From assembly GCA_937961455.1 (NCBI GenBank), contig CALGNN010000142.1, forward strand, positions 1-42,567: a stretch of 42,567 bases of DNA, written 5' to 3'. The notes below the pieces were generated by a model. That model had not been told where the DNA came from. It saw nothing but the letters and a program-made list of their open reading frames with translations, and did not search any database. The stretch is from an uncultured Saprospiraceae bacterium. GTDB lineage: Bacteria; Bacteroidota; Bacteroidia; Chitinophagales; Saprospiraceae. The position numbers and the translations under genes are program-made. Shown one piece after another: positions 30,874-36,150 of this stretch (position 1 is the first letter of the stretch; every line of letters begins with the position of its first letter).

Positions 30874-31521
30874 TTAGAATACCCAAGCAGTTCTCAATCC
30901 TAAAGAAGATGGAGCTGTATTAAATCCTAAGTTTTTACCATCATAACTGTTCTCTTGTCCTAAGTGACCCATAAATGATTGCATAGTTAAATCAATCTTT
31001 AAATGGTTTAAAACAGTAACACCTATGTTAAGATTTAAGCCTAAACGTAGGCTAGAAGCATCAGATGATAAACTTTTCATTTGTTCTAGTTCAGAGTCGT
31101 TTCTGTAATTGGTTTGCACTATTGGACCTGTTTGAAGATGAAACATTTTGTGTTTTACTCCTATGTTTCCTGACAGGTTTATTAAGTGATTTTTCACGCT
31201 ATAATTTTCTTCATTTCTTTCTTCAAGATGTGATTTATCTAGTGTGAAATTTTGCTTATTTATTTCATGTGATAAATTAGCATTTAGATAAAATTGGTTT
31301 TTCAATGGTTTGATTAAACCCATTCCAACATAAGTAGAGCTATTTTCAGTCATGCTCATTTTAAATTGATCAATCCCCGCATCGTTATATACAAGTAATG
31401 TTTGATTGGGAGTTACTCCTGAATTAAGACCGGCAAATACTTCAAAATTCATATTTCCGGTCTGTGCCCTTGTAGCAAAATGGCTTAAGCAGCAGATAAT
31501 TAGTATTAAAATGTTTTTCAT
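30874..31521 (-). CDS. Small outer-membrane beta-barrel protein (OmpX-like)
   Basis: A 215-residue exported protein with a signal peptide (residues 1-19, ending CLSHFATRAQ) and alternating hydrophobic strands typical of an eight-stranded barrel. The final aromatic is F in GLRTAWVF, as needed for barrel insertion. It resembles its upstream neighbour at 31671-32303 in size and layout: both share the GLNLNIGVTV/GGIGVKLGS strand and a FNxAPSxxxLxxxxxF end, so they are probably paralogues. No specific function can be read from it. It has its own terminator. Confidence 0.8.
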   Translation of the reverse strand: MKNILILIICCLSHFATRAQTGNMNFEVFAGLNSGVTPNQTLLVYNDAGIDQFKMSMTENSSTYVGMGLIKPLKNQFYLNANLSHEINKQNFTLDKSHLEERNEENYSVKNHLINLSGNIGVKHKMFHLQTGPIVQTNYRNDSELEQMKSLSSDASSLRLGLNLNIGVTVLNHLKIDLTMQSFMGHLGQENSYDGKNLGFNTAPSSLGLRTAWVF

Positions 31522-31582
31522 CGCGATAATTATATTTAATATTTAAAATTTATTGTTTCAGTTATATATGTCTTGAAACCAA

Positions 31583-31638
31583 AAAACGCATCCCCTAAAA
31601 GATTAATTTTTTTCAAAATCACTCTTTTGGAGGATGCG
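31583..31638 (-). terminator. Rho-independent terminator of the 31671-32303 gene
   Basis: GCATCCCCTAAAAG at 31588-31601 pairs with CTTTTGGAGGATGC at 31624-31637, with one mismatch and one G-U pair, around an AT-rich loop. On the minus strand it is followed by G and six T. It lies about 35 bases past the stop of the barrel protein gene. Confidence 0.8.
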
Positions 31639-31670
31639 CGATGGTCGAATATGTTTCTTTTTTTACTTCC

Positions 31671-32303
31671 TTAGAAGGTGTATCCTAAACCAAGTCTAAA
31701 AGTACTTGGAGCAGAATTAAACTTTACAGGTGTTTCAAAGATGCTCATGTGATCACCTTGACTACCAATCAAAGTTTCATAATGAGCCGCTAATTTCATA
31801 TTTGATCCTAGTTTTACTCCAATTCCACCTTTTAAGCCAAGAGAAGTAGTGTTAAAATCACTTGAATAAGCATCCAGTGTAGAAATATCTCCTGCTGAAG
31901 CCAAATGGAATCTCACCACTGGACCTGATTCAAAAAATATTCTTTTTCCTTCAAGTCCAAACATAAGTGGAACTTGTACTGAGTGCGTTGTTTCTGTTTT
32001 ACTTATATCTGTTGCACCATCTTCACTGTAGAAGTTGATTGCATAGTCAGTTGAATAGTATCTGTACTCTGCACCAGGTTTTACATAAAAAGGCCCTACA
32101 GGGATCTGCGCATTAACTCCTGCAAAATAGGAGTTTGCTTTTGTTTGTGTCAGCTTGTAGGTTGGTACACTATTGTTTAATACAATGGCACTATTTGGTG
32201 CTACATTTTCAAAACCCTTTGAAATAGTAAATTCGTAATTAACCTGAGCATTTAATCCAAAGCTCAAAATTATTATCGATGTTATTAGAATTGTCCTGAT
32301 CAT
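31671..32303 (-). CDS. Small outer-membrane beta-barrel protein, paralogue
   Basis: A 210-residue protein with signal peptide (1-19, ending FGLNAQ) and barrel-like strands (FAGVNAQIPVGPFYVKPGAEYRY, HSVQVPLMFGLEG, FFESGPVVRFHLA), closing with the C-terminal aromatic of FRLGLGYTF. It shares the FNSAPS-type end and similar length with the gene downstream, so it probably arose by tandem duplication. Located in the outer membrane; ligand unknown. A 215-base spacer separates it from the third barrel gene. Confidence 0.8.
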   Translation of the reverse strand: MIRTILITSIIILSFGLNAQVNYEFTISKGFENVAPNSAIVLNNSVPTYKLTQTKANSYFAGVNAQIPVGPFYVKPGAEYRYYSTDYAINFYSEDGATDISKTETTHSVQVPLMFGLEGKRIFFESGPVVRFHLASAGDISTLDAYSSDFNTTSLGLKGGIGVKLGSNMKLAAHYETLIGSQGDHMSIFETPVKFNSAPSTFRLGLGYTF

Positions 32304-32518
32304 TTACTTAAAATTTAATGTATTCGCAATTTATTTACATATAAGACGGCCACAAGTGTTAATAATGTGGTATCTAAATGTTAAAAATTTAATAAGGTGG
32401 GTTTTGATCCTATCTGAGACTATAACCCATCTAAATCAAATTTTGTTCGGTTAAAAGCTAAAAAACTTAATTTAAAAGTAAAATATTGTCTATAAGAGGT
32501 GTTTTACAAGATAAAATT

Positions 32519-33145
32519 CTAAAATTTTAATCCTATCGATGCTACAATTCTTGAAGGATCGTTGCTATAAGTGTACTCAGTTGAGCCAATTGTTATGCTT
32601 CCTTCATCATTTTTAAAGCCATTTTCATATCTAAGATCTAGTGTTATGAAGGCAAGATTTAATCCTGCTCCAATTTGATAACCGTAAGTAAGTTGCTTAA
32701 AAGTATCTACAAGTACTTCTTTATCAACAAGTTCTGCCTTTGAATTAACAAACACATGACCAATTGGACCTCCTCCAAATCTAAAAGGACCTAGTTTATA
32801 TTGAAATAAAATCGGGATATCCAAGTGCTGGAATTTAATATCTAAATCTTGATCGGGATCAATTTGACTCGGATCTTCATAAACAAAAGTTGTTTTATTA
32901 GAATTAAAAACAATTTCTGGTTGAATTATCAACTTCTTCGCTGTTATTTGAGCGAAAACGCCATAATGCAAGCCATATTCTGAAGTTTTTAAGATATCTA
33001 ACAATTGTCCTTCTTCATTATTTATAAGTTGTTGGACGGTCAAATCTTGATTGTGAACACCAGCTTTAATTCCAGCTTTAAATTGTGCAGTTAAAAAATT
33101 ATGAGAGAGGAGGAGAACAAAAACGAGGATGCATTGTTTTTTCAT
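32519..33145 (-). CDS. PorT-like outer-membrane beta-barrel protein
   Basis: A 208-residue exported barrel protein, distinct from the two downstream. Signal peptide residues 1-20 (ending FLTAQ); then FKAGIKAGVHNQDL and YGLHYGVFAQITAKKLIIQPEIVFNS, typical of the PorT/OMP_b-brl_2 type, followed by LDIPILFQYKLGPFRFGGGPIGHVFV and a C-terminal ASIGLKF with terminal F. PorT proper is part of the T9SS apparatus, but this broad family has many unrelated members, so I do not claim that role. It diverges from engB across 131 bases. Confidence 0.82.
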   Translation of the reverse strand: MKKQCILVFVLLLSHNFLTAQFKAGIKAGVHNQDLTVQQLINNEEGQLLDILKTSEYGLHYGVFAQITAKKLIIQPEIVFNSNKTTFVYEDPSQIDPDQDLDIKFQHLDIPILFQYKLGPFRFGGGPIGHVFVNSKAELVDKEVLVDTFKQLTYGYQIGAGLNLAFITLDLRYENGFKNDEGSITIGSTEYTYSNDPSRIVASIGLKF

Positions 33146-33276: not shown

Positions 33277-33879
33277 GTGATAAAAGAAATGTCATATCTC
33301 GGTAGTTTTACGACTTTGCAAACTTGTCCAGAGTTGAAACTACCTGAATATGCCTTTATTGGTAGATCTAACGTTGGGAAATCAAGCTTGATAAACTTTC
33401 TGGCTAATAGAAAGAATATGGCTCGAACATCCAAGTCTCCCGGAAAAACGCAAGCCATGAATTATTATCTGATTGATAAATCATGGTGTATTGTTGATCT
33501 GCCCGGTTACGGTTATGCAAAAGTTTCAAAAACCAAGAGACGACAATGGCAACAAATGATAGAAAGATATTTAGGCCAAAGAGAAAATCTTCAGGTTGCC
33601 TTCATTCTTGTTGACTCAAGCATCAATCCACAAGAGATTGATATTGAATTTATCAACCTTATGGGTAGATTATCTGTACCTTATGTAATCGTTTTTACTA
33701 AAACTGATAAGGCAAAAGATAGTGTTGTTGACGAAAATATATCTAAATTTAAGTCTAGGTTGCATGAATATTGGGAGGATTTACCTCAAACATTTATTAC
33801 AAGTTCAATAAAAAAAGAAGGAAATGAACCTTTGATGGACTTTATTAAAGAATTGAACGAGCAATTTACCGTTCAATAA
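33277..33879 (+). CDS. engB: Ribosome biogenesis GTPase EngB (YsxC/YihA)
   Basis: An essential GTPase of large ribosomal subunit assembly. G1 is GRSNVGKSS (29-37), G3 DLPGYG (74-79) and G4 TKTD (141-144), the usual EngB order. I place the start at the second of two GTG codons (33277), which gives 200 residues and an N-terminus (VIKEMSYLGSFTTLQTCP) that fits the family. An ATG 51 bases upstream would add a hydrophobic stretch not seen in relatives. It leads an operon with the broken acyltransferase (11-base gap) and an exonuclease. Confidence 0.93.
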   Translation: MIKEMSYLGSFTTLQTCPELKLPEYAFIGRSNVGKSSLINFLANRKNMARTSKSPGKTQAMNYYLIDKSWCIVDLPGYGYAKVSKTKRRQWQQMIERYLGQRENLQVAFILVDSSINPQEIDIEFINLMGRLSVPYVIVFTKTDKAKDSVVDENISKFKSRLHEYWEDLPQTFITSSIKKEGNEPLMDFIKELNEQFTVQ

Positions 33880-33890
33880 TTATTTTAAAA

Positions 33891-35606
33891 ATGCGACTAC
33901 CCGTTAGGAAAATATATAAAGACCTGTATCCAGATGTAAACGACTTTCCCATAAGTCGGCTATATTCCAATAGAGATAAGTTTGTTGCAAAAATTAAAGA
34001 ACGCGCCTTGTCAAAGGTCATGGCTCGCTTTGATGGAAAATTGGAAGAAATCATTGCAAGAACGATATACTATGAACAAAAACGTGTCAAAGAAAACCCT
34101 TGGAAAGTAGACCCAAGGCGTGAAGATAAATACTGGAAGAAATTAAAATCAGAACTAAAAGATTTAAAGAATAGTGTCAACGCTACAAAAAGAGAAGAAC
34201 AGGCTGATAAATTAATTAAGAAGATCATCAATTTGTATGCTGAAGAGATCATCGGTGGCTTCAAACCTAAGTCCTATTTGAAAGCGCGAGTCTACCTGAA
34301 ATTTTTATTCAATAGACTTTTGGATACGGCTACAGGAATTAGGAAAAAGAAGTTTTGGGGATTGGAAAGTTCCTTGGAAGATCGCTTGAGATTGTATGGT
34401 GATATTGATAGAATTAGGGGCTTGTTTAAAGATCATACAATAGTAGTTGTACCTACACATTTTAGTAATCTAGATAGTATTTTAATAGGCTATGCACTTG
34501 ATCATATTGCCGGCTTACCTGGCTTTTCATATGGAGCGGGTCTTAATTTATATGATTCAGAAATTGTAGCCTATTTCATCAATAGGTTAGGAGCTTATCG
34601 TGTCGATCGTAGAAAGAAGAGCCCAGTTTATATTGAAACATTGAAGTCGATGTCTACTATTTCATTATTAGAGGGAACTAACAGCTTATTTTTTCCAGGA
34701 GGTACAAGATCAAGATCATGAAAAATTGATCAAAAATTAAAATTAGGTTTATTAGGTACAGCTATCGAATCTCAAAGGATACTACTGCAAGAGGGAAGTA
34801 ATAAGAAAATTGTAATTGTTCCATTGATATTGAGTTACAATTTTGTTCTTGAAGCAGGAGATCTTATTGAAAATCATCTTAAGAAAGTAGGAGAAGAAAA
34901 GTACCTCTTAGAAAGGGGGCAAAGCTTTACCGCATCGAATGTACTCTCGTTTGCATGGAAAGTATTCAAAGAGGAATCAGAAATCATTCTTTCCTTAGGA
35001 GACCCTATAGACGTTCTTGGAAATAAAATAAAAGAAAATGGAGACAGTGTTAGTGAAAATGGAGATGTGATTGATATTAAGGACTACTTTGCTACAAATG
35101 AAGTTGTTGATTACAATAAACAAAGAGAGCTGGTATACACTTCTGAACTATCAGAGGCTATTGTTAAATCTTTCTTTAAATATAATGTTGTCGTTTCAAG
35201 CCAAATTGTAGCTTACGCTGCTTTCAAAATCTTTGAAAAACAATATGGGGACAGAGAATTGATGGATATGATGAATATGTCTCCTGATGAGTTTATTATT
35301 CCCATTAACGATTACATAAACTATGTAGAAGAGTTGAGATTAGAGTTGTTAGAAATGGAACAACGTGAAGAGATTATTTTGTCCGAAAATATCAGAACAA
35401 ATACGAATTCCGTAATTGAAGAAGGACTCAGAAAATTGGGGAGCTATCACGTGAAACGCCCATTGCTAAAAGATGAAAACGGGAATATTATTTCAAAAGA
35501 TTTAAAGGTGTTGTTGTATTATCATAACAGATTGGAAGGATATGAATTAGACGAGCGAATTAGCTTATCTAAGAAAAAAGCCCAACTCGTCTCACAAAAT
35601 AATTAA
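33891..35606 (+). pseudogene. Lysophospholipid acyltransferase (PlsB/AGPAT-like) interrupted by one in-frame TGA
   Basis: The two open halves, 33891-34721 and 34722-35606, are in the same frame and make one protein of about 571 residues if the TGA at 34719-34721 is read through. Motif I of the acyltransferase is PTHFSNLDS (H190, D195), motif II lies around GAYRVDR, and motif III reads FFPGGTRSRS directly before the stop. In relatives this motif continues with a glycine; GGA to TGA is one base change. Downstream sequence (KLKLGLLGTAIESQR, IVIVPLILSYN) continues the domain, followed by a long helical C-terminal region with no decay. So the cause is a recent nonsense mutation, a sequencing error or read-through. 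The role would be acyl transfer in phospholipid synthesis. The upstream half alone lacks part of the catalytic domain. Confidence 0.8.
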
Positions 35607-35607
35607 T

Positions 35608-36150
35608 GTGAATTTTATTGTTTTTGATTTAGAAGCTACTTGTTGGAGAGGTCGTCCACCTGGAGATGCAAATGAAGTAATTGAAATTGGAGCTTACAAA
35701 ATTTCTGCTTTAGGGCAAGTTGTATCCATATTCAACAAGTTTATTAAACCCACAGTCAATCCCAAATTATCCAAGTTTTGTAAAGAGTTGACCAATATCA
35801 AACAAGTTGATGTGGATCGCTCAAATAAATTCCCTGTTGTGCTTGAGCAATTTCAAGACTGGATCAACATTTATGATGAAGATTATTTATTGTGTAGTTG
35901 GGGAGATGCTGATATTCGTTTATTGAGAAATGATTGTATCCTGCATGATCTAGAACATGATTGGTTGGTTAAAAACATTGATGTCAAAAATCAATATCAT
36001 GAAATTAAAGGCAAAGTTAAATATGGTGGCTTGAAAAAGACAGTAGAAAAAGAAGGTTTTGAATTTACTGGATTACAACACAGAGCCATTGCGGATGCTG
36101 AAAATTTAGCAAAAGTCTTTATGAGATATATTGACGAATGGATGTTTTAA
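35608..36150 (+). CDS. DEDDh 3'-5' exonuclease (ERI1/KapD-like)
   Basis: A 180-residue exonuclease with the DEDDh set: D7 and E9 (FDLEATCW), the second Asp in CSWGDADIRLL (D100 or D102), H158 (QHRAIADAENLAKVF) and D163. It resembles the KapD/ERI1 type in having the ATCW opening and a C-terminal histidine. Likely trims RNA or DNA 3' ends. The start is GTG at 35608, one base after the preceding stop, since the ATG overlapping that stop is followed at once by TGA. It is translationally coupled and last in the engB operon. Confidence 0.9.
   Translation: MNFIVFDLEATCWRGRPPGDANEVIEIGAYKISALGQVVSIFNKFIKPTVNPKLSKFCKELTNIKQVDVDRSNKFPVVLEQFQDWINIYDEDYLLCSWGDADIRLLRNDCILHDLEHDWLVKNIDVKNQYHEIKGKVKYGGLKKTVEKEGFEFTGLQHRAIADAENLAKVFMRYIDEWMF

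Follow-up and report, generated by a model that had tools for sequence, protein, structure and literature searches.

A lone stop codon inside a gene of a draft assembly is a common occurrence, and by itself it would be unimportant. The enzyme family closest to the gene treated here is the glycerol-3-phosphate acyltransferase PlsB/GPAT1, which NCBIfam describes with an equivalog model, TIGR03703, of 799 positions and a cut-off of 618.5 bits. UGA can also have another meaning than stop: in Gracilibacteria it is reported to be read as glycine (PMC8629427).

Here we describe an in-frame TGA at 34719-34721 of the window, by which we mean the whole stretch of DNA analysed, a contig of 42,567 nucleotides from an uncultured Saprospiraceae bacterium. 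Like other single-base nonsense codons in draft or metagenome assemblies, it is one in-frame stop accompanied by no other lesion and shared by none of 49 relatives; it differs from them in falling within the apparent sole enzyme of a metabolic step. The weight of the site comes from this: the gene looks like the one enzyme with which the group begins phospholipid synthesis, so that the TGA offers a clear-cut way to tell an error from a true loss. We consider that the TGA reflects a consensus error, or else a variant that is minor or very recent, and not a new mode of gene reading, with a probability of roughly 0.6.

A conserved acyltransferase gene interrupted by one TGA

Read as an open reading frame in the given sequence, the gene (Table 1) has TGA as codon 277 of 571, and no further stop is found within those 571 codons. 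The in-frame TGA is thus real in the given sequence. The surrounding frame is open for 290 codons on the 5′ side and 294 on the 3′ side, and the codons just 5′ of the stop encode FFPGGTRSRS, which together with HFSNLD upstream we take to be the FFPGGTRSRS and HX4D motifs of acyltransferases. When the part before the stop is scored alone against PF01553 it reaches 34.1 bits, and reading across the stop with an X raises this to 43.7 bits (Pfam cut-off, 23); this gain, together with alignments to relatives that span the site, indicates that both halves belong to one protein. In the part after the stop the earliest in-frame ATG, GTG or TTG is a TTG at 34824, 34 codons in, and the earliest ATG comes only 180 codons in, so that a plausible restart is absent.

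Table 1. Features of the acyltransferase locus, in window coordinates.
Feature	Position	Strand	Basis
GTPase (Pfam MMR_HSR1), upstream neighbour	33289..33879	+	Pfam; relatives' loci
PlsB/GPAT1-like acyltransferase gene, 571 codons and TAA, one TGA inside	33891..35606	+	ORFs, Pfam/NCBIfam profiles, alignments, fold of intact homologue
Part before the stop, 276 codons, with HX4D and FFPGGTRSRS motifs	33891..34718	+	ORF, Pfam
HFSNLD, an HX4D acyltransferase motif (His 190, Asp 195)	34458..34475	+	sequence reading
GGTRSRS motif abutting the stop	34698..34718	+	sequence, relatives' alignment
In-frame TGA, codon 277	34719..34721	+	sequence, relatives' alignment
Part after the stop, 294 codons and TAA	34722..35606	+	ORF
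RNase_T-type exonuclease, downstream neighbour	35608..36150	+	Pfam; relatives' loci

Across the site, 49 relatives (L003-L031 and L038-L057) could be aligned at 35-47% identity. The column of the TGA holds glycine in 47 of them, asparagine in two (L047, AAT; L057, AAC) and a stop in none. Stops occur within the alignments of only two relatives, and both are terminal (position 3 in L013, position 568 in L007). The gene is present in 358 of 398 family genomes, our own included, and has no match in the other 40 (15 of the 275 good ones); among the matches listed for these 398, an internal TGA occurs in our genome only. TGA was flagged at five other places across the relatives' genomes. Four of these genomes are among the 49 and have no stop inside the site-spanning alignment, and the fifth flag is a fragment on a contig (C7) of genome G040 that covers residues 412-558 only, leaving the site outside. 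Eight named relatives, metagenome-assembled genomes (MAGs) titled Bacteroidetes, Saprospiraceae or Saprospirales, match the gene at 41-43% identity.

The gene carries few marks of decay. Of the columns conserved to 90% or more across 57 relatives, 54 of 58 are retained on the 5′ side of the stop and 35 of 37 on the 3′ side (lowest retention among the rows, 0.88 and 0.84), and two residues invariant in all 57 relatives are altered (Trp 19 is now Phe, and Glu 280 is now Asp). The first tree comparisons gave a long branch, with ranks of 50 and 54 among 58 in the two halves of the gene. When the 58 aligned genomes were narrowed to the 28 whose two neighbour genes were also recovered over 75% of their length, our branch was the longest for both parts. 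It measured 3.2 times the median in one and 2.5 times in the other, as compared with 1.25 and 1.54 times for our neighbour genes; that set included close relatives, which lowered the median. The effect shrank once five of these close relatives were dropped and mean distances used: the rate of our acyltransferase relative to its two neighbour genes is 1.14, the fourth of 23 genomes, and the two parts evolve alike before and after the stop. There has been no long decay of the gene, although there may have been a mild relaxation of constraint. We therefore rejected an old, decayed pseudogene, given one stop only and the conserved columns kept on both sides.

These results bear out what the initial annotation had read from the letters: a single TGA directly after GGTRSRS, both halves in one frame with good family sequence on each side, no other damage, a glycine expected at the stop, and an acyltransferase of the PlsB/PlsC type.

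The apparent sole enzyme of the first acylation

The likeness of the gene to PlsB/GPAT1 lies in its PF01553 domain with HX4D and GGTRSR motifs, in its intact homologues and in its company. The PlsB model matches eight of eight intact homologues, all far under the cut-off, and it ranks first among NCBIfam models in the single homologue examined for this. Our gene scores 42.7 bits and the intact homologue L058 scores 50.5 bits, neither reaching the equivalog cut-off. The gene's family is also shorter, at about 560 residues against the 799 positions of the model, and on these grounds we place it as a shorter branch outside curated PlsB. A PDB sequence search (E up to 0.001) gave a single match, 9vuq, a glycerol-3-phosphate acyltransferase. 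The predicted structure of L058 has a mean pLDDT of 64.4, dropping below 50 just before the glycine; against the PDB (E up to 0.001) its sole fold match is human GPAT1 (8e4y; E 5e-9, probability 1.00, 565 columns, TM 0.41, rmsd 11.3). Given this moderate quality, the GPAT1-like fold of the homologue may serve as a lead, not as proof.

Comparison of related loci gives the gene a recurrent setting. Of 37 related loci (L003-L031 and L058-L065; L026 and L061 are one near-identical record, so the pooled counts contain one repeat), 34 have a gene for a GTPase, which we take to be EngB/YihA, immediately before the acyltransferase gene in the same orientation.

A profile search of our genome returned no match to PlsX or PlsY, with a Bacteroides control genome not among the controls that gave matches. 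The PlsX search covered our genome and the PlsY search also covered 59 relatives. In these 60 genomes PlsY never co-occurs with the acyltransferase: it was found in none of the 51 genomes with the acyltransferase gene and in seven of the nine without it (Fisher p 9e-8, kinship uncorrected), all seven lying outside the window's family and six in families of their own. Two genomes, G015 (99% complete) and G052, have neither. A congener of G015, G144, does carry the acyltransferase gene, so some absences of the gene may be assembly gaps. Tested in this way, the acyltransferase gene is found to stand in for PlsX/PlsY in our genome.

No second gene of the window's acyltransferase family was found in the genome. 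Four other proteins there exceed the PF01553 cut-off (a pair on contig C28, and one each on C23 and C53); among NCBIfam models they score best against AGP_acyltrn, which is of the PlsC type, though under its cut-off, and they have no match to PlsB models at E up to 1e-5. By their sequence these four paralogues appear PlsC-like.

Taken together, the PlsB matches, the GPAT1 fold, the absence of PlsX and PlsY matches, the exclusion of PlsY and the GTPase-adjacent locus lead us to infer that the gene encodes the group's glycerol-3-phosphate acyltransferase, which would catalyse the first acylation of phospholipid synthesis and would be essential. With PlsX and PlsY undetected, and PlsY found only in genomes that lack the gene, a fixed loss should be harmful or lethal. 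This gives substance to the earlier remark that, barring a second copy, a loss would come as a surprise.

A probable consensus error or rare variant

The window is one contig of a genome of 4.62 Mb in 250 contigs, 96.27% complete. A comparison of 80 end stretches, 79 of which are real contig ends, revealed two exact overlaps of 141 bases: the window start with the start of contig C96, and C38 with C191 (L110 and L111), which splits the release factor 1 gene. Such overlaps fit a de Bruijn assembly at k=141, usually the largest k-mer used by a common metagenome assembler, and suggest that the genome is a short-read metagenome assembly, and so presumably a MAG. It is also incomplete, since tRNA-Asn is missing among the 31 tRNAs found.

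How often TGA interrupts a frame in this genome was surveyed in 975 kb (61 stretches, 21% of the genome), on a mechanical selection of stop-to-stop ORFs spanning 80 codons or more. The 772 ORFs end in TAA (520), TAG (154) and TGA (98, the TGA at 34719 included), and 21 of the TGA stops overlap the ATG of a downstream ORF as ATGA; TGA is an ordinary terminator here. The TGA at 34719 makes the only TGA-split pair in the same frame without a start beside the stop, and, with 290 and 294 open codons on its two sides, the split is beyond chance. One other TGA-split pair of at least 80 codons in the same frame has an ATG immediately after the stop. Four same-frame pairs are split by TAA or TAG in the 975 kb, with first starts 15-33 codons in; inspected by eye, two are complete neighbouring gene pairs (L118, L188) and two are shadow frames of a repeat (both in L193). 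When the limit was lowered to 50 codons over 685 kb, three more late-start TGA pairs appeared (L117, and L161 twice) with 54-73 codons each; by eye their frames appear to fall in non-coding or antisense DNA, and we set them aside as noise.

Our preferred reading rests on an isolated stop, a conserved gene, the apparent sole enzyme of its step and a short-read draft assembly. The TGA would be an isolated single-base anomaly of that assembly, arising either as a consensus error or as a nonsense variant that is minor, or has appeared very recently, among the organisms sampled, and the living population would most likely carry an unbroken acyltransferase gene. We thus regard the anomaly as probably technical or rare rather than fixed. 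In its support stand the stop in none of 49 relatives, the little decay, the lack of PlsX and PlsY matches and the single TGA split in 772 ORFs. Against it count the position of the site in mid-contig, the one gene copy found in the genome, the changes at Trp 19 and Glu 280, and the long branch in the first trees. The initial annotation had left the choice between an error and a true loss open; the evidence now leans to an error or a rare variant.

Fixed loss, an unlikely alternative

Of the readings that remain, the order of falling likelihood is fixed loss, readthrough and recoding. Fixed loss, which we consider unlikely, would be a very recent nonsense mutation that has killed the gene, with a PlsC-like paralogue (the C28 pair, C23 or C53) or an unseen enzyme making lysophosphatidic acid instead. 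The genome does hold those four other PF01553 proteins over the cut-off, but PlsB models give no match to any of them (E up to 1e-5), and the best model of each is AGP_acyltrn, itself below its cut-off. Also in favour are the 40 of 398 family genomes (15 of 275 good ones) without a match to the gene, and G015, in which neither the gene nor PlsY was found; yet the gene is present in the congener G144, and some of the absences may therefore be gaps of assembly. The long branch and the two altered invariant residues speak for a fixed loss, and the 35 of 37 conserved columns kept after the stop speak against it.

Readthrough and recoding, improbable alternatives

Less likely again, and in our judgement improbable, is a real TGA at which readthrough by a near-cognate tRNA (such as tRNA-Trp) would supply enough enzyme. 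The conservation of the remainder of the gene would agree with it, as would a column that accepts a residue other than glycine (asparagine in two of 49) and the failure to find an RF2 gene in the assembly. It is opposed by the rest of the survey, with no other such TGA split in 772 ORFs and 21 TGA stops in ATGA overlaps, by the absence of TGA from the column in all 49 relatives, and by the RNA: the 85 bases from 34716 to 34800 show no SECIS-like hairpin, folding no better than their shuffles (z 0.75; an equal or better fold in 153 of 200 shuffles).

The RF2 result deserves a separate word. No RF2 match over the cut-off was found in our genome, while 36 of 40 genomes (ours among the 40) have one; the long match that the search did return is RF1, with 446.5 bits to prfA. 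Genome G003, given as 100% complete, likewise has no RF2 match, yet TGA ends 12 of its 31 sampled ORFs, which means that a missing RF2 match does not imply reassignment. Since TGA is a regular stop in both genomes, the missing RF2 match, at first sight a sign of reassignment, was set aside. If the lineage has recently lost RF2, if UGA is ceasing to serve as a terminator, and if readthrough now lets the sole glycerol-3-phosphate acyltransferase tolerate a UGA, this would be a code change in its earliest phase; the combination seems to us a long shot. Separately, the missing RF2 matches in our genome and in G003 are possibly assembly gaps.

Programmed recoding, with TGA read as selenocysteine or as glycine in the manner of Gracilibacteria, is even harder to credit. 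The expected residue is indeed glycine, the meaning reported for UGA in Gracilibacteria (PMC8629427), but the machinery for either version was not found in our genome. Of 346 first-look tRNA candidates 150 were scored, and the 31 tRNAs found include none with a UCA anticodon, in a genome 96.27% complete. For tRNA-Sec 150 of 229 candidates were scored; the best of them coincides in position with a tRNA-Ser and stays at 43.5 bits, under the cut-off of 47, and the best SelB match reaches 188.8 bits against a cut-off of 242.25, at an ORF read by eye as EF-Tu. A search of the window with Rfam at the gathering score gave nothing. A selenoprotein gene was accordingly rejected, with SelB and the scored tRNA-Sec candidates under their cut-offs and no hairpin seen after the TGA, and so was a UGA-reassigned genome, with TGA ending 98 of 772 ORFs and no UCA tRNA found among the 31.

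Least credible of all is a working split enzyme with one polypeptide per half, which the conservation of both halves would favour but which none of 49 relatives has at this site, and whose second half would have to begin at the TTG 34 codons in, inside the conserved block VPLILSY, or at the ATG 180 codons in.

Other features of the window

In 27 of the 37 related loci an exonuclease gene lies downstream of the acyltransferase gene, in the same orientation and no more than 1300 bases away, and in 20 of them the distance is no more than 130 bases. Seven more stops lie under a match of 28% identity; these are antisense to the exonuclease gene, and we rejected them as chance. Upstream, at 30874-33145 on the minus strand, three adjacent ORFs of 208-215 residues have starts that by eye resemble signal peptides, and they possibly encode outer-membrane barrel proteins.
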